The notes below the pieces were generated by a model. The model had not been told where the DNA came from. It did no database searches and worked only from the letters and a program-made list of their open reading frames with translations. A program made the position numbers and the translations under genes. This document shows positions 4,726 through 23,610 of a DNA stretch of 64,000 bases, in pieces; position 1 is the stretch's first letter; each line of letters starts with the position of its first letter. This stretch comes from Chloroflexota bacterium. Its GTDB lineage: Bacteria; Chloroflexota; Anaerolineae; UBA4142; SHND01. The DNA is taken from positions 1-64,000 of the forward strand of contig JAKOPZ010000152.1 in NCBI GenBank assembly GCA_029778615.1, written 5' to 3'.

Positions 4726-4994
4726 GTCGAAACTGTACCATTGCTTGAGAGGAGTGTCAATCACGGTGTCATGCGATTAGGTGTTGCTCGCATATAGTAC
4801 GATCACTTGACGAGAAGTTGTTGCCCGAAAAAAGGTTTGGAGACGACCGACATCGCCTCCAAACAGAATAGCTCTATTGACTGAGGCAATGGTAATGCCG
4901 CGCAATTCTCGCGATACCACGAACAATGTTAAAATCTCGCGCGTTGATTAAGGGAGGCGCGGCCTCAACGACAACCTTCGTGTACCGTTGCGTA

Positions 4995-5093
4995 GGTGGA
5001 TATAAAGAAAGTAGTTCGGGAACAAGAGAACAAGGCAAAGCGGCGCGCGAATTTTTTACGCAGTGGAAGACGGTGTACGTGGATCCACTGTAA
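4995..5093 (+). pseudogene. C-terminal remnant of a second aldehyde dehydrogenase
   Basis: The plus strand encodes 32 residues ending in a stop codon. They read GGYKESSSG, then TREQGKAAREFF, then TQWKTVYVDPL. These match the end of the dehydrogenase at 3271-4725 (GGTKASSSG, LHEQGKAAREFF, TEWKTVYIDPL) with substitutions, so this is a diverged second copy and not a recent duplication. Nothing recognisable as dehydrogenase lies upstream in any frame, so roughly 93 percent of the gene is gone. The rest of 4726-4994 holds no gene. It contains one imperfect hairpin at about 4834-4866 (TTTGGAG/CTCCAAA). Confidence 0.8.
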
Positions 5094-5161
5094 ATGGCAA
5101 GCCGCGCTAGTCTATCGCGCGAGCATATTGAGATGAAATAGGATGATACCGCAAGCTCTTG

Positions 5162-5167
5162 TATAAT
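5162..5167 (+). promoter_or_regulatory. -10 promoter element for fluoride riboswitch 1 operon
   Basis: A perfect TATAAT lies about 7 bases before the expected transcript start and immediately upstream of the aptamer. The -35 at 17-base spacing (TAGGAT, 5139-5144) is poor, so promoter strength is uncertain. Confidence 0.6.
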
Positions 5168-5171
5168 TCGT

Positions 5172-5280
5172 CGCAGCGATGAGGCTCGCTGTGTGATGCG
5201 GTGGATTTCTTTCGCATCACACGAACCGTCCCTTGCGACTAATAGCCTCTACGGGTAGACCGTCCGTAGGGGCTTTTTGT
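5172..5280 (+). promoter_or_regulatory. Fluoride riboswitch (crcB RNA motif) 1 with terminator
   Basis: The fluoride aptamer is recognisable. P1 is CAGCG/CGCTG (5174 onward) around the loop ATGAGGCT. An extra hairpin is inserted (TGTGATGCG/CGCATCACA). A short second stem and the conserved TAATAGCCTCTAC follow. Loop GAGGC pairs with GCCTC to make the pseudoknot. The same GCCTCTACGG also starts a terminator stem that pairs with CCGTAGGGGC and is followed by TTTTT (5244-5279). Pseudoknot and terminator are mutually exclusive, so fluoride binding should turn transcription on. The next gene starts 17 bases downstream. The long inserted hairpin and the weak second stem make this the most divergent of the three copies in the window. 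Confidence 0.88.
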
Positions 5281-5296
5281 TTGCCTAAAAATTCCG

Positions 5297-6184
5297 ATGA
5301 GCGTGACAAACTGGCGCCAGACTCTAACCCGCGCGTTTGACCGTTTCCCGCGCGTCGTCGGGCGCGTGCAAGAACTGGAACCGGAGGAACAACACGCGCT
5401 TGAAAACATGTGCGGCGATGACGCGTTCGATTTCATCGCGCGCTTTCCGCCGTTCGATATGACGTTGAGCGAATATGCGCGCGCGCAGCGCCGCCGGGCA
5501 CTCGATGAGGCATCGTTGTCCCCTCAAGTCTGGGCGCGGCAAGGGAATCGCTTTTTTGTTTTGCAACATGTGTCCGGCACGACGCGTGTGCAGGTTATCG
5601 CGCGCGACGACATTCTCACCTTTGAACTCGGCGAGGTGCTGCTGCACGATTGGCTGGAACTCGCGTTCACACACGAAAACGAAACGCGCGTCGTGCATGT
5701 AGATTTCAACGCGGTCGGTTTGGATTGGCTCAAACCGCTCGTTGCAAGTTTGCGGCAGCGCGTTCAAAATACGGGTTCGGAAGCCGCGTCCACGCCTGAC
5801 GCTTCAAGCGCACCTTTGCCGTACAAATGGCAAACCATCCTGCAGATAGAAACAAAGGTGTTTAACGAAACTGCCCTGATGTGCGCGTTCGAACCGTCTG
5901 CGCCGCGGCGCTGGGTTTGGCAACACGGACGCGAAGGAAAACTGGTACTGCTCATGCCGCAGCACGTCGTCGTTGTGCGTGAGCCGCTGGAAATTTATCC
6001 GTATGGCTGGATTACCAAATCCTGCGTACGTTCGCAAATTCGTGACGCGCGCGTTGTGCTTGCCGAACAATCCGCCATTTTGGAATTGTCGCTCGGCGCG
6101 CGCAAGTTGAAATTTCCGATAGAATTACCGCGCCCTCATGCCGAAACGTTGGCGCAGATGGCGCAAGAACTTGGCGGTAATTGA
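5297..6184 (+). CDS. Hypothetical protein with two PH-like domains, first gene after fluoride riboswitch 1
   Basis: A 295-residue protein without signal peptide or membrane segment. Residues about 85-160 and 185-290 each look like a small PH-like beta-barrel ending in a helix. The second half aligns by eye with residues about 235-322 of the pyrophosphatase-like protein at 20327-21748. Shared positions include YGxI, a DAR triplet, a hydrophobic strand, FxIExP and a terminal helix. A linker rich in S/A/T/P (about 157-175) separates the domains. It starts at an ATG 17 bases after a riboswitch terminator, with no clear ribosome site. It is followed after 80 bases by moxR-type genes on the same strand. 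Function unknown; an adaptor or regulatory role in the fluoride response is inference. Confidence 0.8.
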   Translation: MSVTNWRQTLTRAFDRFPRVVGRVQELEPEEQHALENMCGDDAFDFIARFPPFDMTLSEYARAQRRRALDEASLSPQVWARQGNRFFVLQHVSGTTRVQVIARDDILTFELGEVLLHDWLELAFTHENETRVVHVDFNAVGLDWLKPLVASLRQRVQNTGSEAASTPDASSAPLPYKWQTILQIETKVFNETALMCAFEPSAPRRWVWQHGREGKLVLLMPQHVVVVREPLEIYPYGWITKSCVRSQIRDARVVLAEQSAILELSLGARKLKFPIELPRPHAETLAQMAQELGGN

Positions 6185-6191
6185 AAACGTG

Positions 6192-6233
6192 ACTGAAAAC
6201 GCGACAGGTTTCCGAAAACCCGTCATGTTTTCA
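6192..6233 (+). other. Imperfect intercistronic hairpin
   Basis: The gap between the PH-like gene and the MoxR gene holds CTGAAAAC paired with GTTTTCAG, with an inner GAC/GTC and GG/CC continuation. No T-run follows, so it may be an mRNA stability element and not a terminator. Confidence 0.4.
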
Positions 6234-6264
6234 GCAGATTAAAAATCAATTGGAGTAAATCCAA

Positions 6265-7236: not shown

Positions 7237-7326
7237 TCAATAGTCAACAGTCAACAGTAATACGTATCCTTCATACTGACGACTGATTACTGACGACTGA
7301 TTACTGACCACTGACCACTGACCACT
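7228..7326. repeat. Word-repeat palindrome (AGTCAAT/ACTGACC type)
   Basis: The left arm is a run of AGTCAAT/AGTCAAC words. The right arm is a run of ACTGATT, ACTGACG and ACTGACC words, roughly its reverse complement. It fills the gap between the MoxR and DUF58 genes and overlaps the last codons of the first. It belongs to a family of low-complexity inverted repeats seen throughout the window. Confidence 0.7.
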
Positions 7327-7330
7327 CGAA

Positions 7331-8551: not shown

Positions 8552-8563
8552 GCAGAGCTTGAA

Positions 8564-9991: not shown

Positions 9992-10011
9992 TACGGGCGA
10001 ATGAATTCGCC

Positions 10012-10174
10012 GCAACGCATCGCGAATTCGACCTCCGTCGAATTGTTGGCTTTCCGTCAACGAAGGTTGACGTGCGGTCAGTTGCTGCGATTAGCAACGC
10101 ATCGCGAATTCGACCTCTATCGAATTGTTGGCTTTCCGTCAACGAAGGTTGACGTGCGGTCAGTTGCTGCGATT
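10012..10174. repeat. Two tandem copies of a structured 82-bp repeat
   Basis: Copies lie at 10012-10092 and 10094-10174. Each is closed by GCAAC/GTTGC and contains two hairpins: AATTCGA-loop-TCGAATT, and CGTCAAC-GAAG-GTTGACG. The copies differ only in the first loop (CCTCCG versus CCTCTA), so the stems are conserved. An extra hairpin GGCGAAT/ATTCGCC precedes the array and ATTGCATTT/AAAATGCAAT follows it. I see no gene in 9992-10382. Possible readings are a small RNA, a DNA-binding array or a transposon remnant. Confidence 0.75.
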
Positions 10175-10194
10175 TCCAATCGCCCGCATTGCAT

Positions 10195-10222
10195 TTGACC
10201 TAAAATGCAATGAGAGTAAAAT
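10195..10222 (+). promoter_or_regulatory. Candidate promoter for ABC transporter operon
   Basis: TTGACC (10195-10200) and TAAAAT (10217-10222) are separated by 16 bases. This would start a leader of about 155 bases before the permease gene. Confidence 0.45.
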
Positions 10223-10311
10223 CGCAAAAGTTTTTGAATGCCTATGTTAGCGGAAGCCAATTTATCTGAACCTGATAGTCCTATCCCGCAGCGCGCGGAT
10301 TTGCGCGCGTG

Positions 10312-10386
10312 GTCTCGTTTCCCCAGCTAGTTTTTCCTGATGCACGAGACTGCGCGCGCTGCGCGTGTCTCGAGGAGGTCTCGTGC
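10312..10386 (+). promoter_or_regulatory. Candidate RNA toggle over the permease start codon
   Basis: A single ACGAGAC arm (10342-10350, longer form GCACGAGAC) can pair with three downstream or upstream copies of its complement: GTCTCGT at 10312-10318, GTCTCG at 10367-10372, and GTCTCGTGC at 10378-10386. The last pairing covers the GTG start codon and traps the GAGGAGGT ribosome site in the loop. The middle one leaves both free. Mutually exclusive pairings of this kind suggest translational control. No known riboswitch class was recognised. Confidence 0.45.
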
Positions 10387-12104
10387 GTCGTCGAATTTTC
10401 ACTCCCTCTGTCATTCCGGGTCCTGTCTTTAACGCGGCGGACGCGCTGATTATCGCCGGCGTCGTCGCACTGCTTGCGTTTGGCATTTTCCTCGCGCTCG
10501 ATGCGCCGCGCAATGTCAGCGGTCCCGACATTCAACTCACGCCGTTTTATTTGCCGTGGTACGCCACCTATTCGCTAACGCGCATGTTGGCAGCGTATCT
10601 GCTCTCGCTCAGTTTTACTCTTGTCATTGCGTATGCGGCAGCCCGCAATCCTGCGGCGGAAAAAATTATTCTCCCCATTCTAGACATTCTCCAATCGGTC
10701 CCGATTCTTTCGTTTCTGCCCGTCGTCGTTTTGTCCCTCACCGCGATTTTGCCTCAAGCCGTCGCCTTGGAACTTGGCGCGGTGGTTTTGATTTTTACCA
10801 GTCAAGTGTGGAACATGACGTTCAGTTTTTATCAGGCGCTCAAGACCACTCCGACGGATTTGGGCGAAGCGTCGAGCATTTTTCGTCTCAATCCCTGGAT
10901 GCGTTTTCGAACGATGGAATTGCCGTTCGGTGGAATTCCGCTCGTGTGGAACAGCATGATGAGTTGGGCGGGCGGCTGGTTTTTTTTGATGGCAGCCGAA
11001 ACATTCACTGTCGGCGAGCGCGATTTTCGACTCGCCGGTTTGGGTTCGTATTTGCAAGCGGCGGCAGATGGCGCGGACGTGCGCGCAATTTTGTGGGGTC
11101 TCGCCGCGCTCGTGGGGACAATTATTGTGCTGGACCAATTCGTTTGGCGTCCACTGCTCGCGTGGGCAGACCGCTTCAAAGTGGAAATGGTGGAAGCGGA
11201 CGAACCGCCCACGTCATGGTTTTATGATGTATGGCAGCGTTCACGCCTTGCGACATGGTGGAGCATGCGCGTGCGGCGTCCTTTTTCGGAATGGCTCGAT
11301 GCGCGTATCGCGCGGCGTTTCCAAGCGCAAAATGTAAACGTGATGACCTCCGCGAGGGTTTCGCGCGTTGTGCGAATTATTTTGCTCCTGCTGCTCGCGG
11401 GAATTTTATTGTGGGGCGCTTACAGCGCGTTTGTGTTGTTGGCGCGCGTTTCATTGGACGAATGGGGTGCGATTGCGTTGGGCGCGGGCGCGTCGTTTTT
11501 GCGCGTACTCGTCGCGCTCACCATCGCGCTCGCGTGGACGTTACCTGTCGGCGTGGCGATAGGAATGAATCCGCGTCTCGCGCGGGTATTGCAGCCGATT
11601 GTCCAAGTGACAGCGGCGATTCCCGCTACCGCGCTCTTTCCAATCATCGTCTTGCTCTTTATTCAATTCACGGGTGGTTTGAATGTTGCCGCGATTTTGT
11701 TGATGTTGTTGGGAACGCAGTGGTATTTGTTGTTCAACATCATTGCGGGCGCGGCGGCGATTCCGCGCGATTTGGTGTACACGACCCAAACGCTTGGACT
11801 GCGCGGGTGGCGGCGTTGGCACACGATGATTCTGCCCGCGCTTTTTCCGTACTTGATTACGGGCATGATTACGGCGGCGGGCGGCAGTTGGAACGCCACC
11901 ATCGTCGCGGAATACGTGACGTTTGGCGGTAAAACGTATTTTGCAACGGGTTTGGGCGCGGAAATCGCGCGTGCGACGGCAACAGGAAATTATCCCGTAC
12001 TGCTCGCGGCGACGTTGACGATGATTGCGATTGTCGTCGCGTTCAATCGTTTTTTCTGGCGGCGGCTCTATCGCGTCGCCGAAGAACGCTATCGGATGGA
12101 TTGA
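10383..12104 (+). CDS. ABC transporter permease, two fused NitT/TauT-type domains
   Basis: A 573-residue inner-membrane permease made of two successive binding-protein-dependent permease domains (about 60-260 and 330-560). Each has around six helices and an EAA-type loop (for example DLGEASSIFRLNPW and YTTQTLGLRGWRRW). The type is that of nitrate/sulfonate/bicarbonate importers, but normally one such domain is encoded per gene, so this is a fused dimer. It starts at GTG 10383, directly after a strong GAGGAGGT. The GTG at 10365 would put that ribosome site inside the gene. The ATPase follows at 12201. No substrate-binding protein is visible nearby, so the substrate and even the direction are open. 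Confidence 0.88.
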   Translation: MRRRIFTPSVIPGPVFNAADALIIAGVVALLAFGIFLALDAPRNVSGPDIQLTPFYLPWYATYSLTRMLAAYLLSLSFTLVIAYAAARNPAAEKIILPILDILQSVPILSFLPVVVLSLTAILPQAVALELGAVVLIFTSQVWNMTFSFYQALKTTPTDLGEASSIFRLNPWMRFRTMELPFGGIPLVWNSMMSWAGGWFFLMAAETFTVGERDFRLAGLGSYLQAAADGADVRAILWGLAALVGTIIVLDQFVWRPLLAWADRFKVEMVEADEPPTSWFYDVWQRSRLATWWSMRVRRPFSEWLDARIARRFQAQNVNVMTSARVSRVVRIILLLLLAGILLWGAYSAFVLLARVSLDEWGAIALGAGASFLRVLVALTIALAWTLPVGVAIGMNPRLARVLQPIVQVTAAIPATALFPIIVLLFIQFTGGLNVAAILLMLLGTQWYLLFNIIAGAAAIPRDLVYTTQTLGLRGWRRWHTMILPALFPYLITGMITAAGGSWNATIVAEYVTFGGKTYFATGLGAEIARATATGNYPVLLAATLTMIAIVVAFNRFFWRRLYRVAEERYRMD

Positions 12105-12200: not shown

Positions 12201-13550
12201 ATGAACACAAACAACCACAATCACAACGTTCTCGTGGAACTCAAGGGCATTGGAAAATTTTATGGACGCGGACAGAGACAAATTCGCGCGGTGGAAAATG
12301 TGAATTTCAAAATTCACGACGGCGAATTTGTCGCGCTGCTGGGACCATCGGGCTGCGGCAAATCTACGCTGCTGCGAATGATTACGGGTTTAATGCCGCC
12401 GAGCGCGGGCGAGGTCTTGTATCGCGGCGAACCACTGCGCGGCGTGAATGAACACGCGACGATTGTGTTTCAAAGTTTTGCGCTGTTTCCATGGCTCACG
12501 GTGCAAGCGAATGTGGAAGTGGCATTGCAAGCGCGCGGCGTCGCGTCCGATGAACGCCGCGCGCGCGCATTGAAATTGATTGACCTCGTGGGCTTGGACG
12601 GTTTCGAGTCCGCGTATCCGCGCGAACTTTCGGGCGGGATGCGCCAAAAGGTTGGCTTTGCGCGCGCGCTCGCGGTGGAACCTGAACTGTTGTGTTTGGA
12701 TGAGCCGTTCAGCGCGCTCGACGTACTTTCGGCGGAATCGTTGCGCGGCGAGTTGATGGAATTGTGGACGAGCCGCGCGCTGCCCACGCGCGCGATTTTG
12801 CTCGTGAGTCACAATATCGAAGAAGCGGTGATGATGGCAGACCGCATTATTGTGATGGACAAGGACCCCGGGCGCGTGGTGACAGAGATTCAAGTCGCGC
12901 TGCCGCAGCCGCGCCATCGCAAAGATTTGCATTTTCTGGCGATGGTGGACCGCGTGTACGCGTCGGTCGCGGGGGAAACGCCGCGCGAACCAACCGCGTT
13001 GATGGGCACCGCGCCGGATGAACCGGGCAAAACCGAGATGCTGCCCCACGCGCCCATCAATGCCATTGCGGGGTTGGTCGAGTATCTGGCGGAAGAAGGC
13101 AAACGCGCCGATTTGTATTTTGTCGGCGAAAAGTTGGGAACAGAGTTGGACGAATTTTTGCCGGCAGTGGAAGCAACCGAGTTGTTGGGCATGGCAACTT
13201 TGCAGGGCGGCGATATTGAGCTCACGCCACTAGGCGAAACGTTCGCGGCGACGACCATTCTCGCGCGCAAGGAAATTTTCGCGCAGCGGATTCGTTCGCT
13301 GCCGATATTTCAATGGATTGTGGATGAATTGCAGCACGCGCCGGAACATCGTCTGCCGCAAGAATTTTTCTTGAAGGTCCTGGAAAGCGATTTCACTTCC
13401 GAAGAGGCAGAGCGACAGCTGGACATTGCCATTAATTGGGGACGTTACGCCGAAGTGTTTGAATTCGACGATGACCGCGACGAATTGTATTTGCCCGCGA
13501 ATGGTTTGACACTTGTCGGTGTCGGTGATACGATTTCGAGCAGAAAATAA
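12201..13550 (+). CDS. ABC transporter ATPase with C-terminal AAA-associated domain
   Basis: A 449-residue protein that energises the permease encoded upstream. Residues 1-260 are a complete ABC ATPase: Walker A GPSGCGKST (48-56), Q-loop, signature LSGGMRQKV, Walker B LLCLDEPFSALD and H-loop VSHNIEE. Residues about 290-445 form the AAA-associated C-terminal domain found on some NitT/TauT-type ATPases (motifs GLVEYLAEEG, DELxxAxEAxELLG, a late EEAERQLDIAINWGRYAEVF). That domain may sense a ligand. A fluoride riboswitch begins 5 bases after the stop codon, and a strong promoter lies inside the last 45 bases of the gene. Confidence 0.92.
   Translation: MNTNNHNHNVLVELKGIGKFYGRGQRQIRAVENVNFKIHDGEFVALLGPSGCGKSTLLRMITGLMPPSAGEVLYRGEPLRGVNEHATIVFQSFALFPWLTVQANVEVALQARGVASDERRARALKLIDLVGLDGFESAYPRELSGGMRQKVGFARALAVEPELLCLDEPFSALDVLSAESLRGELMELWTSRALPTRAILLVSHNIEEAVMMADRIIVMDKDPGRVVTEIQVALPQPRHRKDLHFLAMVDRVYASVAGETPREPTALMGTAPDEPGKTEMLPHAPINAIAGLVEYLAEEGKRADLYFVGEKLGTELDEFLPAVEATELLGMATLQGGDIELTPLGETFAATTILARKEIFAQRIRSLPIFQWIVDELQHAPEHRLPQEFFLKVLESDFTSEEAERQLDIAINWGRYAEVFEFDDDRDELYLPANGLTLVGVGDTISSRK
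13506..13534 (+). promoter_or_regulatory. Promoter for fluoride riboswitch 2 operon
   Basis: TTGACA (13506-13511) and TACGAT (13529-13534) are separated by exactly 17 bases. Both lie inside the end of the ABC ATPase gene. Transcription would start near 13541, just before the aptamer, so the downstream operon has its own fluoride-controlled transcript. Confidence 0.8.
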
Positions 13551-13642
13551 AATATGGCGATGAGGTTCGCCTGTCTTGAACAAATGGTCATCCGACCTAA
13601 TGACCTCTACCATACGCAGCGTGCAGTGGTAGAGGTTTTTTG
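13551..13642 (+). promoter_or_regulatory. Fluoride riboswitch (crcB RNA motif) 2 with terminator
   Basis: A compact canonical fluoride aptamer. P1 is GGCG/CGCC (13556 onward) around the loop ATGAGGTT. P2 is GGTC/GACC, followed by TAATGACCTCTACC (to 13611). The pseudoknot pairs loop GAGGT with ACCTC, a compensatory change relative to GAGGC/GCCTC of riboswitch 1. ACCTCTACCA then re-pairs with TGGTAGAGGT as a terminator followed by TTTTTT (13603-13641). Fluoride binding should prevent termination. It controls the operon that starts with the MutS-like gene at 13670. Confidence 0.95.
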
Positions 13643-13669
13643 TTGCCGAGTCCGGCTGAGGAAATTCCG

Positions 13670-15202
13670 ATGTTGTTTTCGAGTATGCTTTTTGAACAAC
13701 CGCAAACAGAACTCGATCGCGCAACGGTTGAGCAGCCCGAATGTTTTGGCGACCTCAACCTCGACCAAATTGTTGATGCGGTGACGGCGGGCAAACAAGA
13801 ATACAACTTGAAACCATTTTTCTACATGCCGCTGCATGATGTGGAGGCAGTCCACTATCGGCATGAAATTTTTCGCGCATTGGAAAATTCCGCGTTGTTG
13901 GAAACGATTCAAAAATTTGCCAAAGCCATACGGGCAATACGCGAACATTTGGAACAAGCGGCGAAACTCTATTACAAGGGACAAAAAGAAAAATGGTTTT
14001 TGGACGCGGTGCAAATCTATTGTGATGCGGTGAAACAACTTGCAGACGATTTATCGCAATTCGATTTGTGCGCGCGCGGCTTGTTGGCGTTCCGCGAATT
14101 TTTGACGAACTATGTCAACACCGATTCTTTTCGCGCGCTGCATGAGGAAGCAAAGCAGTTGGGCGCGGATTTGGCAACGATTCGTTACACCATTCACATC
14201 AAAGGCAATCGCGTCCAAGTCCGCAAATACGAGGAGGAGACCGATTACAGCGCAGAGGTCGAAGAGACGTTTGCGAAATTCAAACAGGGCGCGGTCAAAG
14301 ATTACCGCGCGAAATTTCCGAATTGGCAAGAAATGAATCACGTCGAGGCGCAAGTGCTGACGGGCGTCGCGCAAATGCATCCCGAAATTTTTTCGCGCCT
14401 CGCCAATTTTTACGCGCAGCGGCAAAATTTTTTGGATGAAACGATTGGCGCGTTCGACCGCGAAATCCAATTTTATCTCGCGTATCTCGAACACCGCGCG
14501 CGGCTCCAACGCGCGGGCTTGGTCTTTTGCTATCCCCGCGTGTCCGCACAGGATAAACACGTTTGCGCGGACAAAGCATTTGACCTCGCACTGGCGGACA
14601 AGTTGGTGAGCAAAGATACGCCGATTGTTTGTAACGATTTTTTCCTCAAGGATACAGAGCGCATTTTGATTGTCACGGGTCCGAATCAAGGCGGCAAGAC
14701 GACGTTTGCGCGCATGTTTGGGCAACTGCATTATTTGGCGAGTTTGGGTTGTCCTGTGCCGGGCAGTGACGCGCAGCTGTTTTTGTTTGACCAATTGCTG
14801 ACGCATTTTGAACGCGAAGAGAATATCGAAAATCTGCGCGGCAAATTAGAAGACGATTTGTTTCGCGTTCACGCCCTCTTGGAACAAGCCACGCCAAACA
14901 GCATTTTCATCCTCAACGAAATTTTCAACTCGACGACACTGCAAGACGAAATTTTTCTAAGCCAAGAAATTTTGCAAAAAATCAGCGCGCTCGACGCGCT
15001 GTGCGTGTGCGTGACATTCCTCGACGAGTTGGCGGCGTTGAGCGAAAAAACCGTGAGCATGGTGGCAACCGTGATGCCCGAAAATCCAACCGAGCGCACG
15101 TTCAAGGTGGAGCGCAAGCGCGCGGACGGATTGGCGTATGCGTTATCGCTCGCGGAAAAATACCAGTTGACGTTTGATGATTTGCGGGAGCGATTGCCAT
15201 AG
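13670..15202 (+). CDS. MutS-like ATPase 1 (no mismatch-recognition domain)
   Basis: A 510-residue protein whose C-terminal third is a MutS-family ABC-type ATPase: Walker A GPNQGGKTT (337-345), Walker B IFILNEIF, and a following loop with EIFLSQEIL. Upstream lies a long helical core (about 30-320) resembling the MutS lever/clamp. The N-terminal mismatch-recognition and connector domains of true MutS (about 800-900 residues) are absent. It starts at ATG 13670 behind TGAGGAAA; the TTG at 13640 lies inside the terminator. First gene of the fluoride operon. MutS-like genes are among those reported downstream of the crcB motif, but the role in fluoride tolerance is unknown. Confidence 0.88.
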   Translation: MLFSSMLFEQPQTELDRATVEQPECFGDLNLDQIVDAVTAGKQEYNLKPFFYMPLHDVEAVHYRHEIFRALENSALLETIQKFAKAIRAIREHLEQAAKLYYKGQKEKWFLDAVQIYCDAVKQLADDLSQFDLCARGLLAFREFLTNYVNTDSFRALHEEAKQLGADLATIRYTIHIKGNRVQVRKYEEETDYSAEVEETFAKFKQGAVKDYRAKFPNWQEMNHVEAQVLTGVAQMHPEIFSRLANFYAQRQNFLDETIGAFDREIQFYLAYLEHRARLQRAGLVFCYPRVSAQDKHVCADKAFDLALADKLVSKDTPIVCNDFFLKDTERILIVTGPNQGGKTTFARMFGQLHYLASLGCPVPGSDAQLFLFDQLLTHFEREENIENLRGKLEDDLFRVHALLEQATPNSIFILNEIFNSTTLQDEIFLSQEILQKISALDALCVCVTFLDELAALSEKTVSMVATVMPENPTERTFKVERKRADGLAYALSLAEKYQLTFDDLRERLP

Positions 15203-15218
15203 GAACAATTCAACCCGT

Positions 15219-15280
15219 AGTAACGATTTCAATCGTTCCACGCGCGAGCCGTGCGCGGGACGAATGAATTCGTCACTACG
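15219..15280. repeat. Imperfect palindrome between the MutS-like genes
   Basis: GTAGTAACGATTTCAATCGT on the left is mirrored by ACGAATGAATTCGTCACTAC on the right, around a centre of CCACGCGCGAGCCGTGCGCGGG. A short relative lies at 12146-12172. There is no T-run, so it is probably a dispersed element and not a terminator. Confidence 0.6.
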
Positions 15281-15289
15281 CCATGATAG

Positions 15290-16822
15290 ATGAAAGTTTT
15301 TTTGATGCACCGCGCGCGCGATTTTGATTTGAACGCGCCGCTGCCGACCAATGCCCAGGACCTGATTCAAGATTTGGAACTGGACACGCTGTTTCAAGCC
15401 ATGGCGGGCGAGGACGAATTTTTGCTCGGCGTTGCCCGACAAGCTGTGTTGTCGGGATTCGATAATGACCTTGACACGCTGCGCTATCGCCAGAAAGTTC
15501 TCAAGGATTGCTTGAACCACGCGGCGCTTGTGCGCGAAATGTACGAGATTGCTGTGCAAGCCATCGAACGCGAGCGCAAAAATTATTGGGGCATCACGAG
15601 CAACTATCCGCCTTCGACTCTGCATCGCGGGCGCGAAGTGATGCAAATGTTTGTCGAGATGCTCAAGAAATTGCGCGCCATCGCCGACGCGCACGCCGCG
15701 CAGTTTCAGTCGGACGGCTTTACGACGTTATTTGCGATGCTCCAGCGCGAACTGACGGATGAGTATTTCGCGCGCGTGCAAACGCATTTGCGCGCGTTGA
15801 AATTTGACGACGGCGTTCTCATTAGCGCGCAGTTGGGCAACGGAAACAAGGGCGTCAATTATGTTTTGCGGAAACCGCATAACAGCGACCAAAGTTTTTT
15901 CGAGCGCGTGTTTGCGTCCAAGCCGCCCGCGTATACGTTTTACATTGCCGACCGCGATGAGAGCGGCGCGCGCGCGCTCGCGGAATTGGAAGGGCAGGGC
16001 ATCAATCTCGCCGCCAACGCGCTCGCGCAATCGGATGACCATATTCTTGCGTTTTTTAAAATGCTGCGCGTCGAGTTGGGTTTTTATGTGGGCTGCTTGA
16101 ATTTACACGCGCGGCTTGCCGAAATAGGCGAACCGATTTGTTTTCCGATTGTCAGCGCGGCGCCGGAGCGAAAACATTCGTTTCAAGAACTGTACGATGT
16201 GTGTTTGGCGTTGAACATGGAGCAGCATGTTGTCGGGAATGATGTGAATGCGGACGCCAAGAATCTGGTCATCATCACGGGCGCGAATCAAGGCGGCAAG
16301 TCCACCTTTTTGCGCAGCATCGGTCTCGCGCAATTGATGATGCAGGGCGGCATGTTTGTTCCCGCCGAAACGTTTTCCGCGAATGTGTGCGACGCGCTGT
16401 TCACGCATTACAAACGCGAAGAGGATGCGAGTATGGCGAGCGGCAAATTCGACGAAGAACTCAAGCGCATGAGCGAAATCGTCGAACATCTCGCGCCCAA
16501 TTGTATGGTGTTGTTTAATGAATCCTTTGCCGCGACGAATGAACGCGAAGGTTCCGAAATCGCGCGGCAAATTGTTTCGGCGCTGCTGGAACGCGGCATC
16601 AAGATTTTTTACGTGACGCATCTGTACGAATTCGCGCGCAGTATGTTTGATAAACACTTGTCCGACGCGTTGTTTTTGCGCGCCGAGCGTCACACGGACG
16701 GTACCCGCACGTTCAAGTTAATGGAAGGCAAGCCGTTACAAACAAGTTTCGGCAAAGATTTGTACGAGAGAATTTTTGGAGGAGAAAATCCAATAGCGGT
16801 GGAGACAAATGGCAGAGAGTGA
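15290..16822 (+). CDS. MutS-like ATPase 2 (paralogue of the preceding gene)
   Basis: Exactly the same length as its upstream neighbour, 510 residues. It has a helical core (about 25-310) and a MutS-type ATPase at the C-terminus: Walker A TGANQGGKST (330-339), Walker B CMVLFNESFAATNEREG, and a late FYVTHLYEFA motif. As in the neighbour, the DNA-mismatch domains are missing. MutS ATPases work as dimers, so the two proteins could form a heterodimer (inference). The start is ATG 15290, with no clear ribosome site. The last 14 bases overlap the next gene, which indicates one transcript. Confidence 0.87.
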   Translation: MKVFLMHRARDFDLNAPLPTNAQDLIQDLELDTLFQAMAGEDEFLLGVARQAVLSGFDNDLDTLRYRQKVLKDCLNHAALVREMYEIAVQAIERERKNYWGITSNYPPSTLHRGREVMQMFVEMLKKLRAIADAHAAQFQSDGFTTLFAMLQRELTDEYFARVQTHLRALKFDDGVLISAQLGNGNKGVNYVLRKPHNSDQSFFERVFASKPPAYTFYIADRDESGARALAELEGQGINLAANALAQSDDHILAFFKMLRVELGFYVGCLNLHARLAEIGEPICFPIVSAAPERKHSFQELYDVCLALNMEQHVVGNDVNADAKNLVIITGANQGGKSTFLRSIGLAQLMMQGGMFVPAETFSANVCDALFTHYKREEDASMASGKFDEELKRMSEIVEHLAPNCMVLFNESFAATNEREGSEIARQIVSALLERGIKIFYVTHLYEFARSMFDKHLSDALFLRAERHTDGTRTFKLMEGKPLQTSFGKDLYERIFGGENPIAVETNGRE

Positions 16823-18020
16823 AACTGTGGTGGCTGCGCCGACGGCGAACGCGGAAACGGGACTGGAGCGCAATGTTGTTGCGCTGGGCTGGGTCGCGTT
16901 TTTTGGCGGCATGGCGCAAGACATGATTCAACCGGTGCTGCCGATTTTTTATACGACGGTGCTGGGACTCAATACGGAATTCATCGGCTTGATTGAAGGG
17001 TCGTTGATGACGATTGTGAGTCTGGCGAAAATCGGCGCGGGGTATCTTTCGGATGCGTTGGGCGTGCGCAAGCCGATTGTGTTTGTCGGATACGCGTTGT
17101 CCGCGCTCGGACGTTTTGGTTTGGGCTTTGCAAACAGCGGCGCCGCCGTGTTCGGACTGCGTTTGTCAGACGGCGTTGGCAAAGGGTTAAAGGACGCGCC
17201 GCGAGATGCGCTGGTGGCAGGTTCGGCGGGTTCGCGCAAATTGGGGTTTGCGTTCGGCGTACAGCGCACGCTCGATACGTTGGGTTCGGTGGTAGGACCT
17301 TTGATTTTGTTTTTGCTCTTGAATCTGTGGGCAGACCACACCAACAAGTATCACGAAATTTTTTGGCTCGCGGGCGCGATTGCGATGATTCCACTCGTTA
17401 TCATTGGACTCATCGTGCGCGAACGCCGTATGCCCATCTCCAAACAGCGCATCTCGCTCGCCGTACTCAAAGGTCCGTTCGCGTGGTTTCTCGCTGTCAT
17501 GTTGTTGTTCACGCTCGGCAATTCGTCCGATGCGTTTTTGATTCTGCGCGCGCAAAATGCGGGCGTCGCCACCGTTTTGATTCCGATTGTGTATGCGCTG
17601 TTTAATCTCGTTTCGGCGCTGACGGCAATTCCGGCGGGGAAACTCGCAGACCGCATCGGGCGACGGCGCGTTATCATGTACGGCTGGATTGTGTATGCGC
17701 TGACGTATCTCGGTTTTGCGTTCGCGCCGAGCGCGCTGGCGATTTGGGGCTTGTATGCGTTTTATGGATTGTATTACGCGTTGACCGAAGGCGCGGGCAA
17801 AGCGTTGGTTGCAGAACTCGTGCCCGATGAACAACGCGGCGGCGCGTATGGTTTGTACAATGCTTCGATTGGGGTGATGGCGCTGCCCGCGAGTCTCATT
17901 GCCGGATTTTTGTGGAATCAAATTTCGCCCGCCGCGCCGTTTGCATTCGGCGGCATCATTGCGCTGTTGGCATTGGTCGCGCTGCAATTTGTGCCGAGAG
18001 TGAAAACATCAAACGCATAA
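16809..18020 (+). CDS. MFS transporter 1
   Basis: A 403-residue major-facilitator protein with about 12 hydrophobic helices, a cytoplasmic N-terminus, and the MFS motif A-like loop SDALGVRK after helix 2, repeated as ADRIGRRR after helix 8. RDALVAGSAG in the central loop recalls motifs of drug or sugar-phosphate efflux families. The substrate cannot be read from the sequence. It overlaps the MutS-like gene by 14 bases and precedes a second MFS gene by 22 bases. The position suggests export of a toxic compound or a metabolite that accumulates under fluoride (inference). Confidence 0.88.
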   Translation: MAESETVVAAPTANAETGLERNVVALGWVAFFGGMAQDMIQPVLPIFYTTVLGLNTEFIGLIEGSLMTIVSLAKIGAGYLSDALGVRKPIVFVGYALSALGRFGLGFANSGAAVFGLRLSDGVGKGLKDAPRDALVAGSAGSRKLGFAFGVQRTLDTLGSVVGPLILFLLLNLWADHTNKYHEIFWLAGAIAMIPLVIIGLIVRERRMPISKQRISLAVLKGPFAWFLAVMLLFTLGNSSDAFLILRAQNAGVATVLIPIVYALFNLVSALTAIPAGKLADRIGRRRVIMYGWIVYALTYLGFAFAPSALAIWGLYAFYGLYYALTEGAGKALVAELVPDEQRGGAYGLYNASIGVMALPASLIAGFLWNQISPAAPFAFGGIIALLALVALQFVPRVKTSNA

Positions 18021-18042: not shown

Positions 18043-19236
18043 ATGGCAAACGCGATAACGACAGCACTTGGAAAAGTGAATCTCCCGAAACAGACCGCGA
18101 TTCGGTTTGTGATTTTGCTCGGCGTCGTGAGCTTGTTCGCCGACATGACGTACGAAGGCGCGCGCAGTATTGCGGGACCGTTTCTCGCCGTGTTGGGCGC
18201 GAGCGGATTCATCGTCGGCGTCGTCGCGGGTTTTGGTGAATTGATTGGGTACGGTTTGCGATTGGTGTCGGGCTATTTCAGCGACCGCACGCAAAAATAC
18301 TGGACGATTACGCTCGTCGGTTACGGGCTGAATTTGATTGCGGTGCCGCTGCTCGCGCTCGCGGGGAGTTGGGAACTCGCCGCGCTGTTGATGATTCTTG
18401 AACGCACGGGCAAGGCGATTCGAACGCCCGCGCGCGACGCGATGCTTTCGTACGCAACGCATCAAACGGGACGCGGCTGGGGTTTTGGTTTGCACGAAGC
18501 GATGGACCAAATCGGCGCGGTGTTGGGTCCGCTCATCGTCGCGGCGGTGTTGGCGCTGCGCGGAACGTATCAAACGGGCTTTGCGATTTTATTGCTCCCC
18601 GCGCTGCTTGCAATGAGTGTGTTGGTTGTCGCGCGCGTGTTGTATCCGAATCCGCGCGAATTGGAAATCAGTACGCCGACCCTCAAGAACGAAGGGTTTC
18701 CGCGCGCGTATTGGATTTATCTCATCGGCGTTGCGTGCGTTGCGGCGGGCTATGTGGACTTTCCACTCATCGCGTTTCATTTTCAACAAGCGTCCCTCGC
18801 GCCCGATGCGTGGATTCCGATTTTGTACGCGGTGGCGATGGGGATGGATGCCATTGCCGCGCTCGTGTTCGGACGTTTGTTTGACCGCATCGGTATCACA
18901 ACGTTAATAATCGTTTCGCTCATGTCCGCATTATTTGCGCCGTTAGTGTTTCTCGGTGGTTTTGAATTCGCGCTGTTGGGCATGGCGTTGTGGGGAATTG
19001 GTTTGGGCGCGCAAGAATCCATTTTGCGCGCGGCAGTCGCGGGGATGGTTGCGCCCGAACGACGCGGCTCGGCGTATGGAATTTTCAACACGGGCTTTGG
19101 TGTGGTGTGGTTTTTGGGTAGCGCGTTGATGGGTTATTTGTACGATGTGTCACTGCCCGCGCTCATCGCGTTTTCGATTCTCACACAGCTCGCGGCGATT
19201 CCATTTTTTCTCGCGGTGAGACGGAGAGTGACGTAG
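18043..19236 (+). CDS. MFS transporter 2
   Basis: A 397-residue paralogue of MFS transporter 1 with about 12 helices. It has the RTPARDAMLSYAT loop (compare KDAPRDALVAGSA in the first) and a late ERRGSAYGIFNTGFG segment matching ERGGAYGLYNASIG-type sequence in the neighbour. The start is ATG 18043 in a tight operon. Two adjacent related MFS genes could encode a paired or diverged transporter. Function beyond secondary transport is not visible. Confidence 0.87.
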   Translation: MANAITTALGKVNLPKQTAIRFVILLGVVSLFADMTYEGARSIAGPFLAVLGASGFIVGVVAGFGELIGYGLRLVSGYFSDRTQKYWTITLVGYGLNLIAVPLLALAGSWELAALLMILERTGKAIRTPARDAMLSYATHQTGRGWGFGLHEAMDQIGAVLGPLIVAAVLALRGTYQTGFAILLLPALLAMSVLVVARVLYPNPRELEISTPTLKNEGFPRAYWIYLIGVACVAAGYVDFPLIAFHFQQASLAPDAWIPILYAVAMGMDAIAALVFGRLFDRIGITTLIIVSLMSALFAPLVFLGGFEFALLGMALWGIGLGAQESILRAAVAGMVAPERRGSAYGIFNTGFGVVWFLGSALMGYLYDVSLPALIAFSILTQLAAIPFFLAVRRRVT

Positions 19237-19252: not shown

Positions 19253-19693
19253 TTGCACGCGCAGTTACTGAATGAAAATCAAAAACGTTCGGTGGCGGTG
19301 ACCCTGCGTCTGTTTGAAGAACGGCTCGCCGAAGTGGAACGAATGATGACGGTGCAGGAACGCGGCGTCCTGTACGAACGCGTCGCGCATTTCACGCCTC
19401 GGCAACAAGAACAAGTGCGCGCGTTGATTGACGAGGCGCGCCAAGTGATTCGCGACATGGCGCGCGAATTTCAATTGGAACGCGAGGTGCAGAATCCGGC
19501 GCGCCGCATTTTTGGTTTGTTGAGCATTACGTGGGAAAGTCTCGAAGAACTGCACAGCAAACCCCTGCGCGCGTATGGCGCAGTGGACCCGCGTTTGCCG
19601 GAGGTGATTGACCCGTACGCGGAAAAACTCGCGCGCCTGGCGGTCGAATTGCGTCACGCCGCCACACATGACGAGAATGGAAAGAATGAATGA
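19253..19693 (+). CDS. Small helical hypothetical protein
   Basis: A 146-residue soluble protein that is almost entirely helical and highly charged, with a probable coiled coil across about 10-85 (RLFEERLAEVERMM and following). It has no signal peptide, no metal ligands and no recognised domain. It starts at TTG 19253, with GGAAGAGG about 9 bases upstream, and its stop overlaps the start of the next gene (ATGA). That tight coupling makes it a real gene of the fluoride operon. Function unknown. Confidence 0.75.
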   Translation: MHAQLLNENQKRSVAVTLRLFEERLAEVERMMTVQERGVLYERVAHFTPRQQEQVRALIDEARQVIRDMAREFQLEREVQNPARRIFGLLSITWESLEELHSKPLRAYGAVDPRLPEVIDPYAEKLARLAVELRHAATHDENGKNE

Positions 19694-20283
19694 CCCGCTT
19701 TATTTTTGTGCGACATGGACAAACAGATTGGAATCGCGAGAATCGTTTTCGCGGGCGTTTGGATATTCCGCTGAATGAGGTCGGGCGCGAACAAGCGCGC
19801 CGCGTTGGCGCGTATTTGGCGCAAACGCCCCTCACCACAATTTACGCCAGCCCCGTTTCGCGCACCATGCTTACCGCGCAATTCATCGCGCCGCCGCACA
19901 ATGCGCGCGTCATTCCCCGCGTCGAATTGTACGATTTGGATTACGGCGATTGGCAGGGCAAAACGCCGGACGAAATCGGACCTGCCGCGTATGCGTTGTG
20001 GTTGCGTGAACCGGCACGCGTGAAATTTCCCGGCGGCGAAGCGCTCGCCGACGTACGCGCGCGGGTGGTGAAATTGATTGCCGAGCTGTGCGCGCAGCAT
20101 GAGGATGAAACGGTCGCGTTGGTTTCGCACGATTTGGTTGGAAAAATCCTTGTGTGCGCGCTGCTCGGCGCGGACGACAATTCGATTCACCGCGTACAGC
20201 AAGACAATGCCTGTATCAATCGTTTCGATGTGGAAAATGGCGCATACCTGTTGCGCGCAATGAATGAGACTGCCCATCTCTAA
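19690..20283 (+). CDS. Histidine phosphatase family protein (phosphoglycerate-mutase-like)
   Basis: A 197-residue cytoplasmic phosphatase. The catalytic RHGQTDWN motif sits at 8-15 (His9), with the second Arg in SPVSRTMLTA, the acid/base Glu in the ELYDLDYGDW region and the second His in VSHD. Length and motifs fit the cofactor-dependent PGM/CobC/phosphatase branch, so it could be a phosphoglycerate mutase or, more likely, a general phosphatase. It overlaps the previous gene by 4 bases. In a fluoride locus a phosphatase acting near glycolysis is notable, because fluoride inhibits enolase and phosphoryl-transfer enzymes, but the link is inference. Confidence 0.88.
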   Translation: MTRFIFVRHGQTDWNRENRFRGRLDIPLNEVGREQARRVGAYLAQTPLTTIYASPVSRTMLTAQFIAPPHNARVIPRVELYDLDYGDWQGKTPDEIGPAAYALWLREPARVKFPGGEALADVRARVVKLIAELCAQHEDETVALVSHDLVGKILVCALLGADDNSIHRVQQDNACINRFDVENGAYLLRAMNETAHL

Positions 20284-20326: not shown

Positions 20327-21748
20327 ATGAAGGTCGAATTTTTCGCAGATGTAATTGTCGAAACGCCCAAAGGCGCGGCGAACGCGTACGAATGGGATGC
20401 GAAAGCGCAGGTCATTCGTTTGTGCGCGACGCGTCACGATGTAGAAACGCACCCCTTTGAACGCGGGCATCTGGCAAACAGTTTGACCGCGTACGGCGAA
20501 CCCCTACCTGCGCTTTTGGCGATAACTCTTCCGACGTTCCAGAATTGCGCGGTGAACGCGCGCGTGCTTGGCGCGCTCGAACGCGGTGACAGTGAAACAA
20601 CCGCGCACGTTATCGTTGCGGTCGCGGCGAGCGATGCGCGTTTGGCGCAAGTGTGCGATTACACGAGTTTGGAGCATGACGCGCGCGGGTATGTGGAAAC
20701 GGAATTGCGCGCGGGGGCGCGTTGGTTGGATGCGGACGCGGCGTTGGAAATTGTGCGCGCGGCAAGTCGGCGGTGGCGGCTCACGCGCGGGGAAGGGGAA
20801 AGCGTCGCCGCAAGCCCCGCGTGGCAACTGCACGAGGACGATGCCCCACTCGCACACGACGAACGAGGCACCTTTCGCCACTCCTCCGCCGAAGCGCGTT
20901 TGTTCACGCTGCCGCTGCGTTTTCAAAATTATGTTGCCGAACTGCTCGCGCCCGCTGAACGCATTCTGTTATGGGCGCATCGCCCGCGCGCGGTGCGGAC
21001 ACGCCTGGGCATTTTCGGACGCGAAATTTTGCGGCAAGGTTTGTTGGTGATTACGAATCAACAATTTTTGTGGATGAGTGACCCTGTTACGCCGCCACAC
21101 ATTGTTGCGGGCTATGGCTATATCGCGCGCACCTTTGCGCTCGAACGTTTGACGGATGCGCGGCTAAAGGAAAACAACGCGCTGCAATTCAGCGTCACCT
21201 TAAAGAACGGGGACGGCGCGGCAGAAACCTTTGACATTGAATTTCCCGAACACGCGCGCGGGGACTTGCGGCGCGCGGTGAATTTGTTGAATGAATTTGT
21301 GCCGCGCGCAGGCGAAACGCGCGTGATGCGCCGTTTGGAATTTGAACCGCTCAAGCGTGAATTGCAAGACCCGACGACGAGCCATGTGGAGGAAACGCGC
21401 GCAACCTTAAAGAAATTGCGCGACGCGCTGGCGGAACAGTTGAAGGGCGAAACGATTTACGCACAAGCATTCATTCCCGCGTGGGGCGGCGCGCAATTGT
21501 TGACCGTTACAAATTCGTTTCTGCATCACACTGCCGAGACATCCGCGCAAACTCTCACACACAAAATTCCGCTGGACGCGATGGGGAGCGTCGAGATTTG
21601 CAATTCGCAGCTCGATTCGTGGTTCCGCGTATGGCTGCCGACGCCAAAAGGTTTGCAGAATTGGGAAATGGCGTTTCCGGTTGTGTTTGCGCGCGAATTT
21701 AGCGAGTGTGCTTTGGCGTTGCGCGTGTTGTTGGCGGCGCCCAGATAG
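20327..21748 (+). CDS. Degenerate inorganic-pyrophosphatase-like domain fused to tandem PH-like domains
   Basis: A 473-residue protein. Residues 1-150 resemble a family-I inorganic pyrophosphatase: VETPKGAANAYEWD (11-24) matches the ExPKGxxNKYExD signature, and GHLANSLTAYGEPLPALL (47-64) matches the strand that normally reads DGDPxDVLV. All three metal-binding Asp of that motif are replaced (Y56, E58, P61), so this domain is probably not a working enzyme. Residues about 205-325 and 370-470 are PH-like. The first is clearly related to the end of the protein at 5297-6184. I chose ATG 20327 because the upstream 21 residues do not fit the domain. It is the last gene of the riboswitch-2 operon, 20 bases from the convergent CBS gene. 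Confidence 0.75.
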   Translation: MKVEFFADVIVETPKGAANAYEWDAKAQVIRLCATRHDVETHPFERGHLANSLTAYGEPLPALLAITLPTFQNCAVNARVLGALERGDSETTAHVIVAVAASDARLAQVCDYTSLEHDARGYVETELRAGARWLDADAALEIVRAASRRWRLTRGEGESVAASPAWQLHEDDAPLAHDERGTFRHSSAEARLFTLPLRFQNYVAELLAPAERILLWAHRPRAVRTRLGIFGREILRQGLLVITNQQFLWMSDPVTPPHIVAGYGYIARTFALERLTDARLKENNALQFSVTLKNGDGAAETFDIEFPEHARGDLRRAVNLLNEFVPRAGETRVMRRLEFEPLKRELQDPTTSHVEETRATLKKLRDALAEQLKGETIYAQAFIPAWGGAQLLTVTNSFLHHTAETSAQTLTHKIPLDAMGSVEICNSQLDSWFRVWLPTPKGLQNWEMAFPVVFAREFSECALALRVLLAAPR

Positions 21749-21768: not shown

Positions 21769-23046
21769 CTACGTATCGCCATTCGTTCCCTGTCCCGTCA
21801 CGGCTGTCAATAACGCCTGACGATCCAACAGCCCGAGCGGTTTTCCATTCGAATCTGCGACAATCATCCACTTGCGCCCCGCCGCCAACATTCTTTGGGT
21901 TGCCTCGCGCAAAGGCGTGTCCGGCAACACCGTCAACACTTCGGGGGACATCAAATCACGCGCGGTGGCGGAACTGGCGGGGACCGGACCGCGCCGCTGT
22001 AACGCCTCTAGAATATTTCGCTGGTGCGCGGGCTGAATGCGGCTCACGACATCGGCATCACTGACCAGCCCGATGGCGTGGGCGTTTTCGTCCACCACAA
22101 TCAAACGATGCGTGTTCGCCGCGACGAACGCGTTGACGAGTTCAGCCAAGTCGGCGTCCGCGCGCACCGTTGGAATTTCCGATACCATTACATCGCTCGC
22201 CACATGTCCCGCATGTGCGGAAATGGGCTTGCGTCCGACTTTGGTTTCCGCGTTCGCGACTTGATGCAAAATATCGAGCCGCGCGATAACGCCCACCAGT
22301 TTTCCATTCTCATCCACAACGGGCAAGCGTTTGATACCGCGCGCTGCCATGCGCGACGCGGCGACGACGAGGGATTCTTTGGGATGCGTCGTTACGACCG
22401 GCTGACTCATTACCTCGCGTACCGTCAAGCCCGAATCGCCCAAATGTTGCAATTCTTGTTGCAAGAGGGCGCGGTCCAGCCGTGTTGCCACTGAGAGCCG
22501 CTGTCCCAATCCCGCGCGCGTCAGAATATCCTCATCGGTCAACATGCCGACGACGACGTTGTCCGCATCCACGACGGGAAGGGCTTTGGTGTTTTGCTGT
22601 AACATGCGGTCCCAGGCTTGCGCGAGCGACATCTCTGGCGCAAGTGTAATCACTTTGCGCGTCATCACATCGGCGACGGGACGGTCGGCGGGGAGCGGCG
22701 AGAGATAACGATGTGTGTATTTGACCACGCTTACATCGTCCAGCGTAATCAGTCCTTCCGTCACCATCGGCGCGATGAATTCCACTGCCTGCGCGATTTT
22801 TTCGCGCGAATCAATGATTTCGATGCGCAAGGGCAAGTCTTCCGAGAGGCGGAGGATGGAAGCGGTGTGAATGCGCGAGTGCGCGCCAAAACCCGCGACG
22901 CCGCGCACGACGGTGGCGCCAGCCATGCCGTGCGCCCGCAGCGCATCGAGCAGTGCCGCGTACAATGGTTTGCCGCGCCAGCGGTCCGCTTCGCCGATGT
23001 AAATGACCAAACGCTGCGCGTTCGCGCCAATGGAAATTTCTGCCAT
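21769..23046 (-). CDS. DUF190 protein with four CBS domains
   Basis: A 425-residue cytoplasmic protein. Residues about 8-110 are a DUF190 domain (RLVIYIGEADRWRG, LVEALL-like helix, VVRGVAGFG, PLRIEIIDS), a small alpha/beta domain of the PII-like kind that is often encoded beside crcB. Four CBS motifs follow (starting near VMTRKVITL, REVMSQPVV, SDVMVSEIP and RDLMSPEVL), giving two Bateman modules that usually bind adenine nucleotides. Start at ATG 23046, 8 bases after the crcB stop, with AGGA upstream. It probably tunes CrcB or another transporter in response to nucleotide state. Fusion of DUF190 to four CBS domains is less common than DUF190 alone. Confidence 0.88.
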   Translation of the reverse strand: MAEISIGANAQRLVIYIGEADRWRGKPLYAALLDALRAHGMAGATVVRGVAGFGAHSRIHTASILRLSEDLPLRIEIIDSREKIAQAVEFIAPMVTEGLITLDDVSVVKYTHRYLSPLPADRPVADVMTRKVITLAPEMSLAQAWDRMLQQNTKALPVVDADNVVVGMLTDEDILTRAGLGQRLSVATRLDRALLQQELQHLGDSGLTVREVMSQPVVTTHPKESLVVAASRMAARGIKRLPVVDENGKLVGVIARLDILHQVANAETKVGRKPISAHAGHVASDVMVSEIPTVRADADLAELVNAFVAANTHRLIVVDENAHAIGLVSDADVVSRIQPAHQRNILEALQRRGPVPASSATARDLMSPEVLTVLPDTPLREATQRMLAAGRKWMIVADSNGKPLGLLDRQALLTAVTGQGTNGDT

Positions 23047-23054
23047 GTGTGTTC

Positions 23055-23429
23055 CTAAATCAATCGTCCAATGTAAATCGCGGCGAGCATAACCACCCCG
23101 CCAAGAAACGCGCTGCCGAATAGATTCAACAGCCCGGAAACGGTCTGTCCCGCCAAAATGAGGTTGATGCTTTCGTACGTGTAACTGGAAAAGGTGGTGT
23201 ATGAACCGCAAAAACCAATTGCCACCAACACACGCCAGCGCGGGTCGAGCAAAAAACGCTCAGTGGCAAGCGTGATAAAAATTCCCAGAATCAATGTGCC
23301 GGTCAGGTTGATGACGAGTGTGCCAAACGGGAACGACGCGCCGAGCCGCTGAGTGACCCAATCCCCGACCCAGTAGCGCAAATTCGCGCCGAGAAGCGCG
23401 CCGACGGAAATAAGCAAAAATCGCTCCAA
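23055..23429 (-). CDS. crcB: CrcB/Fluc fluoride ion channel
   Basis: A 124-residue inner-membrane protein with four hydrophobic helices. It has the family signatures GALLGANLRYW (11-21), the FPFGTLVINLTGT pore segment with the conserved Asn, and GFCGSYTTFSSYTYE, the Phe-box region. Fluc channels are dual-topology dimers that let fluoride leave the cell. A single gene, as here, implies a homodimer. The start is TTG 23429: a stop codon lies immediately upstream in frame, and AAGAGGAG is placed 9 bases before. It is controlled by the fluoride riboswitch at 23526-23596 and co-transcribed with the DUF190-CBS gene. Confidence 0.96.
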   Translation of the reverse strand: MERFLLISVGALLGANLRYWVGDWVTQRLGASFPFGTLVINLTGTLILGIFITLATERFLLDPRWRVLVAIGFCGSYTTFSSYTYESINLILAGQTVSGLLNLFGSAFLGGVVMLAAIYIGRLI

Positions 23430-23525: not shown

Positions 23526-23596
23526 TAAAAAATGACTTCTACCAAGTAGAAGCCATTAGCCCGAATGAGCAGTTACGGCGAGCTTCATCGCCGAAT
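23526..23596 (-). promoter_or_regulatory. Fluoride riboswitch (crcB RNA motif) 3 with terminator
   Basis: On the minus strand: P1 GGCG/CGCC (from 23592) around the loop ATGAAGCT, P2 GCTC/GGGC, then TAATGGCTTCTAC. The pseudoknot is GAAGC/GCTTC, a further compensatory change compared with riboswitches 1 and 2. GGCTTCTAC re-pairs with GTAGAAGTC as a terminator followed by ATTTTTT. It lies about 100 bases before crcB, the classic target. This copy anchors the identification of the other two. Confidence 0.96.
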
Positions 23597-23610
23597 CACA
23601 AACTCGAATT

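Follow-up and report, generated by a model that had tools for sequence, protein, structure and literature searches.

What does a pyrophosphatase contribute to a fluoride regulon once its active site is gone? This question is raised by the gene at 20327-21748 on the forward strand of the window, that is, of the whole stretch of 64,000 nucleotides of Chloroflexota DNA analyzed here. Family I pyrophosphatase (PPase) is a classic target of fluoride. Fluoride-riboswitch regulons include extra copies of fluoride-sensitive enzymes, for example pyrophosphatase and enolase (PMC11139923, PMC5533749). The original prediction for this gene was that its product keeps the PPase scaffold without the metal-binding Asp residues, that it is fused to PH-like domains in a fluoride operon, and that such a dead copy could be a decoy, a sensor, or a regulator. 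The gene and the parts of its PPase-like domain are as follows.

20327..21748, + strand: pseudo-pyrophosphatase fused to tandem PH-like domains, 473 amino acids (from Pfam, the solved relative, and homologues)
20351..20773, + strand: PPase-like domain, residues 9-149, catalytic residues lost (from the PF00719 match, the residue table, and a dN/dS of 0.22)
20492..20509, + strand: former DxDPxD metal motif, now Y56-G-E58-P-L-P61 (from the alignment with genuine PPases)

The frame is open throughout and has an alternative upstream opening at 20264; we set the start at 20327 because the closest homologues begin at the equivalent position. The family I PPase profile PF00719 matched residues 9-149 and covered positions 1-151 of its 153, with 50.7 bits and an E value of 2.2e-13, which exceeds the curated cut-off of 23.5. 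The top solved relative of the reading frame was the Thermus PPase 2prd (E 5.7e-11), and profile-profile comparison (hhalign) of the pseudo-PPase family with genuine PPases gave a probability of 99.8% (E 2e-30). The likeness to family I PPases thus extends across the whole domain: the scaffold motifs E12-T-P-K-G, N19-A-Y21-E22, and G57-E-P-L-P-A-L-L are present, and the structural residues G57, P59, and G82 are kept. Predicted structures were of low confidence: a model of the full-length protein built from two sequences had a pLDDT of 32.7, and a model of the N-terminal domain, built from a five-sequence alignment that included three viral PPases, had a pLDDT of 42.4. When the N-terminal model was compared with the PDB, PPases ranked at the top with TM values of about 0.3-0.4 and E above 0.05, in a comparison whose input was biased by the true PPases.

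To clarify the state of the active site, we aligned the protein with eight genuine Chloroflexota PPases and 2prd, using E. coli numbering. The 13 positions compared are established as catalytic or metal-binding in family I PPases. Only E20, E31, and D97 are kept in the window protein, as E12, E22, and D88. The metal-binding Asp residues D65, D67, and D70 have become Y56, E58, and P61; K29, R43, Y55, D102, and K104 have become A20, A34, R46, A93, and V95; and Y141 and K142 fall within a stretch deleted from the protein. That is, 10 of the 13 residues are replaced, whereas all nine genuine PPases keep the whole active site apart from one D67E. The scaffold motifs and the changes of three Asp residues to Tyr, Glu, and Pro had been predicted exactly, and the extent of the loss had been understated. 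The protein therefore differs from a family I PPase in these active-site residues, in the missing Y141/K142 stretch, and in the PH-like pair fused onto it.

It might still be supposed that the protein is an active, unusual pyrophosphatase, made resistant to fluoride by its changed metal site, since PPase genes are frequently under riboswitch control and PPases with lower sensitivity to fluoride exist (PMC11139923). However, the 10 replaced positions include R43, K104, Y55, and the D65/D70/D102 set, and the replacement residues are not conserved within the family. We consider this reading highly improbable, and catalysis by the protein is very unlikely.

A chance match to PPases was rejected in view of the E value (2e-13) and the relatives in 30 other genomes. 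A decaying gene was rejected in view of the dN/dS between the window copy and that of the sister genome G003, which is 0.20 overall, 0.22 for residues 1-155, and 0.15-0.17 for the PH parts. These values show purifying selection on the PPase-like domain, which is not simply decaying within this genus.

The relatives were found by whole-genome searches of Chloroflexota, mostly of draft MAGs, and bring the family to 31 loci, of which a few are cut by contig ends and one (G306) has an internal deletion. The closest copy, with 77% identity, is that of G003, an uncultured Chloroflexi MAG, and members from several classes are 22-35% identical to the window protein. Four other genomes of the same genus gave no full-length match, a scan of viral contigs gave no pseudo-PPase, and a two-row alignment of the C-terminal part, searched against genome contigs, found G003 only. 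PF00719 was still matched at E 0.1 or better by 11 of 20 aligned members. The D65-D70-D102 set, K29, and Y55 are kept in none of the 16 members inspected, and none of the three equivalents of E20, E31, and D97 is kept across the family. In a tree, the pseudo domains grouped apart from the genuine PPases with a branch support of 100/100, which is compatible with a single origin; the inner order is unsure and several branches are long. Most full-length members of several classes retain a domain that can be aligned to PPases. The PPase signal weakens in the copies of the class of G498 and is nearly gone in those of the class of G602 (hhalign 12%), so that the latter are assigned by the C-terminal half that they share with the family and by collinearity. 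Two candidates were not counted as members: an apparent fusion in L083 (G108), where a long open frame contains a PPase of the genuine type, and L160:9028-10476 (G460:C166), a second PPase-like domain with an altered active site that lies behind a Nudix-like frame, has no PH part, and has no riboswitch that we could find nearby.

The genes and control elements around the pseudo-PPase in the window are as follows.

13506..13534, + strand: sigma-70-like promoter candidate upstream of the riboswitch (TTGACA-17-TACGAT with TG, 10/12, consensus match only)
13547..13616, + strand: fluoride riboswitch aptamer heading the apparent operon (RF01734, 37.2 bits; gathering score 34)
13602..13637, + strand: terminator hairpin overlapping the 3' end of the aptamer, with a U-run, as expression platform (fold -26.7 kcal/mol, z -4.0)
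13640..15202, + strand: MutS domain V ATPase, copy 1, gene 1 (PF00488, 6.6e-18; conserved neighbour; coordinates run from TTG, and the true start may be later)
15290..16822, + strand: MutS domain V ATPase, copy 2 (PF00488, 4.7e-23; conserved neighbour)
16809..18020, + strand: MFS transporter 1 (PF07690, 1.1e-41)
18043..19236, + strand: MFS transporter 2 (PF07690, 7.8e-25)
19253..19693, + strand: uncharacterised protein of 146 amino acids, a neighbour recurring in 7 genomes (neighbourhood comparison)
19690..20283, + strand: histidine phosphatase family protein (PF00300, 3.5e-57)
21769..23211, - strand: protein with DUF190 and four CBS domains, true start probably later (domain search)
23055..23429, - strand: CrcB/Fluc fluoride exporter (PF02537, 1.3e-24; TIGR00494 over cut-off)
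23540..23601, - strand: second fluoride riboswitch, upstream of crcB (RF01734, 47.9 bits; with terminator)

Riboswitch 13547-13616 heads seven same-strand genes with short or overlapping gaps, the pseudo-PPase being the seventh; judged from this spacing, the run is apparently an operon. That is, a co-directional RF01734 aptamer lies upstream and heads the gene run that contains the pseudo-PPase, which is the arrangement by which we assign a gene to the regulon. The pairing of the aptamer 3' end into a hairpin followed by a U-run is the usual terminator-type expression platform, and terminator-like matches across the operon region were no more numerous than in shuffles. The second riboswitch, 23540-23601, precedes CrcB and the DUF190-CBS protein. 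The prediction of a fluoride operon was therefore upheld by two riboswitches above the RF01734 gathering score and by the exporter at 23055-23429. Because the active site is lost, the domain is fused to a PH-like pair, the operon is under fluoride control, and the gene is kept under selection, we regard the protein as a real pseudoenzyme rather than a product of decay or chance.

As a separate observation, the two adjacent proteins with MutS domain V (13640-16822) stand at the head of this gene run, and such copies lie beside fluoride riboswitches in 11 genomes.

In order to follow the riboswitch linkage beyond the window, we ran a covariance model (R1), made from 16 Rfam- or search-supported riboswitches, over the family loci. 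With this model, 23 of the 31 loci had a co-directional riboswitch in the 7 kb preceding the gene, 16 of them within 0.8 kb; several of the other loci are cut by contig ends. R1 alone is partly circular, because some of its sites precede family genes; the results with Rfam are not. In G299, G306, and G484, an Rfam match above the gathering score directly precedes the gene, and in G565 one lies close to it; weaker matches precede the gene in G491 and G456. A matching terminator hairpin is present even at sites that score lower than the gathering threshold, such as those heading the gene runs of G412 and G053, and most of the riboswitch sites listed carry a terminator. At the loci of the class of G602, no terminator was seen at the riboswitch sites, and a GGTGGAGCATG-like sequence suggests translational control there. 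In the fetched loci, a riboswitch lay at most 600 bp upstream of 12 of 23 family genes versus 27 of 407 other reading frames (p 4e-8). Among 400 genomes of the phylum, RF01734 was present in 19 of 21 carriers versus 110 of 379 others (p 2e-8, by a hand tally in which kinship was ignored).

Two loci are crowded with riboswitches. L080 (G565:C46) has four above the gathering score within 8.2 kb (3876-12031), around MFS, Na+/H+ exchanger, and pseudo-PPase genes. G498:C30 (L166 and L082) is a dense fluoride island: numerous copies of the riboswitch lie on both strands, together with a PH-only protein, an exchanger, a MutS pair, and two CrcB genes.

The C-terminal half of the window protein and the separate gene related to it are as follows.

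20897..21331, + strand: first PH-like domain (PH1), residues 191-335, the best conserved part of the family (alignments, conservation)
21389..21736, + strand: second PH-like domain (PH2), residues 355-470, homologous to the first (hhalign; sub-threshold bPH_3)
5166..5258, + strand: third fluoride riboswitch, sub-threshold, with terminator (RF01734, 21.9 bits, E 6.8e-4; R1, 32.1 bits; fold z -2.8)
5297..6184, + strand: PH-like protein without a PPase domain, akin to the C-terminal half of the pseudo-PPase (profile match, E 6e-7)

Residues 191-470 matched no Pfam family above cut-off, and a PDB search with the PH-like profile found no solved relative. Comparison of the two halves of residues 191-470 with hhalign showed homology between them (probability 95.9%, E 5e-9). 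The likeness to bPH_3 (PF14470) consists of weak, sub-threshold profile matches in 5 of 12 members, the best with an E value of 0.0084, and the member shown scores 16.1 bits against a gathering score of 23. The domain differs from bPH_3 in this low score, in its tandem arrangement, and in its own motif, RFQ...ERIL...RP...T(D/N)xQ. We therefore assign the region, weakly, to two diverged copies of one bacterial-PH-like domain; of the predicted PH-likeness, the homology of the halves and the traces of bPH_3 stood up, and the name itself stays tentative. In 19 members, mean pairwise identity is 0.33 in PH1 versus 0.25 in the other two domains, and the most conserved columns of the family lie within or beside PH1. 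Nearly all of the strongly conserved polar residues (R198, E211, R212, R219, T243, Q246, E273, and R335) are in PH1.

The PH-like region also occurs without the barrel. The riboswitch at 5166-5258, which contains a long inserted hairpin, precedes the PH-only gene of the window, and the PH-only gene of G003 has an equivalent site at L032:16355-16457. A PH-only protein is part of the gene run riboswitch, CrcB, DUF190-CBS, PH-only in G119 (L085), and another lies downstream of a riboswitch in G498 (L166). Since PH-only relatives fall under the same riboswitch class and the most conserved residues lie mostly in the PH-like part, we suggest a core role for the PH module, with the PPase fold as a scaffold added to it. 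The tandem PH-like module looks like a shared component of the fluoride response, to which the PPase-like barrel was added N-terminally in one large branch. As for gene order, the stretch 5166-9991 of the window has the riboswitch and the PH-only gene followed by MoxR, DUF58, and DUF4129 genes, and this order is shared with G003.

The same observations could be read to mean that only the PH-like module matters and that the N-terminal domain has been retained as a relic. Besides the PH-only relatives in fluoride operons and the fading of the PPase signal in the classes of G498 and G602, G306 provides a natural case of a dispensable barrel: at L084:9686-10282, an in-frame deletion has removed most of the PPase-like domain and PH1, and PH2 and the riboswitch are kept. 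Because this deletion sits behind an intact riboswitch, the PPase-PH architecture is not strictly required. However, a dN/dS of 0.22 over residues 1-155 and the persistence of a PPase-alignable domain in most full-length members of several classes speak against a mere relic, and we think this reading quite unlikely.

A further possibility is that the dead copy joins or shields a genuine PPase, soluble or membrane-bound, and so alters its fluoride sensitivity. G003 has two genuine PPases, one of which is a neighbour of enolase in the fluoride island that also contains the pseudo gene, at a distance of about 17 kb from the latter; a membrane H+-PPase was present in all 16 genomes checked; and PPase is a known riboswitch-associated gene (PMC11139923). 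However, no genuine soluble family I PPase was found in the window's genome (95% complete) or in G299, G498, G535, and G412 (95-99% complete). Because five hosts show none, partnership with the soluble enzyme cannot be a general role. The H+-PPase does not discriminate as a partner either, because it is present in carriers and non-carriers alike, including sister genomes without a full-length pseudo gene. We judge such a partnership unlikely. With these hosts and the loss of D65-D70-D102 in all 16 members, which would keep a Mg-fluoride-PPi complex from assembling in its normal manner, the suggested decoy for a genuine soluble enzyme is not supported as a general role.

The remodelled barrel might alternatively be a sensor that signals through the PH-like part when it binds phosphate, PPi, Mg2+, or a metal-fluoride complex. 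The retention of E20, E31, and D97 equivalents in the window protein and the purifying selection on the domain favour this. Against it, these three residues are not kept across the family, the main Mg-site Asp residues are gone, and the barrel has few conserved polar columns. We regard a ligand sensor as rather unlikely, and we give little credence to its more specific form, in which the barrel would sense fluoride or a metal-fluoride/phosphate complex, or act as a decoy for it, and would signal through the PH-like module to the transporters. If this form were true, a second, protein layer of fluoride sensing, built from a fluoride-poisoned enzyme, would stand beside the riboswitch.

Taken comprehensively, we think it somewhat probable that the pseudo-PPase is a fluoride-induced, non-catalytic scaffold or regulator, in which the PH-like pair serves for docking and the barrel as an interaction surface. 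In this scaffold reading, a family I PPase barrel lost its catalytic and metal-binding residues, received a PH-like pair, and came under the control of a fluoride riboswitch. When intracellular fluoride rises, the riboswitch would block termination and the seven-gene operon would be expressed, as far as induction can be judged from the RNA sequence; CrcB would be expressed alongside under its separate riboswitch. The PH-like pair may then dock the putative scaffold to the membrane or to partner proteins, and the protein is possibly membrane-proximal. The barrel may offer a surface for binding another protein, perhaps one encoded in the conserved neighbourhood; candidates are a transporter, the MutS-V ATPase, the zinc-ribbon/HEAT protein, and the DUF190-CBS protein. 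It thus seems that a target of fluoride has found a second, non-enzymatic use in the defence against fluoride, and that the tandem PH-like module is a so far unrecognised component of the fluoride response.

The neighbours of the family recur as follows: MutS-V ATPases in 11 genomes, MFS transporters in 10, MoxR, DUF190-CBS/Usp, and DUF6062 proteins in 9 each, the 146-aa protein in 7, DUF58, zinc-ribbon/HEAT, and enolase in 6 each, and a Na+/H+ exchanger in 5; CrcB is also among them. DUF6062 proteins recur in the Chloroflexota fluoride neighbourhoods L033, L076, L077, L078, L080, L081, and L149. The genes known to be linked to the riboswitch are those for CrcB, Na+/H+ antiporters, enolase, PPase, and phosphatases (PMC11139923, PMC5533749). 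In the open-licence full-text literature, we found no earlier description of a pseudo-PPase in fluoride regulons. In several Chloroflexota classes, the pyrophosphatase slot is filled by a protein unable to be a normal pyrophosphatase; therefore, some genes annotated as riboswitch-linked pyrophosphatases may be unrelated to PPi.

A known system close to this arrangement is FRM of Enterobacter cloacae, a resistance operon under a fluoride riboswitch with the order ppaC-uspA-eno-gpmA-crcB (PMC5533749). The Chloroflexota loci resemble FRM-type operons in that RF01734 controls genes of the exporter, pyrophosphatase, phosphatase/mutase, Usp, and enolase types (PMC5533749). They differ in that MutS-V ATPase, MFS, and DUF6062 genes surround the pseudo-PPase and in that, whereas the PPase of FRM is annotated as manganese-dependent (PMC5533749), the corresponding slot in Chloroflexota is occupied by a dead family I domain.
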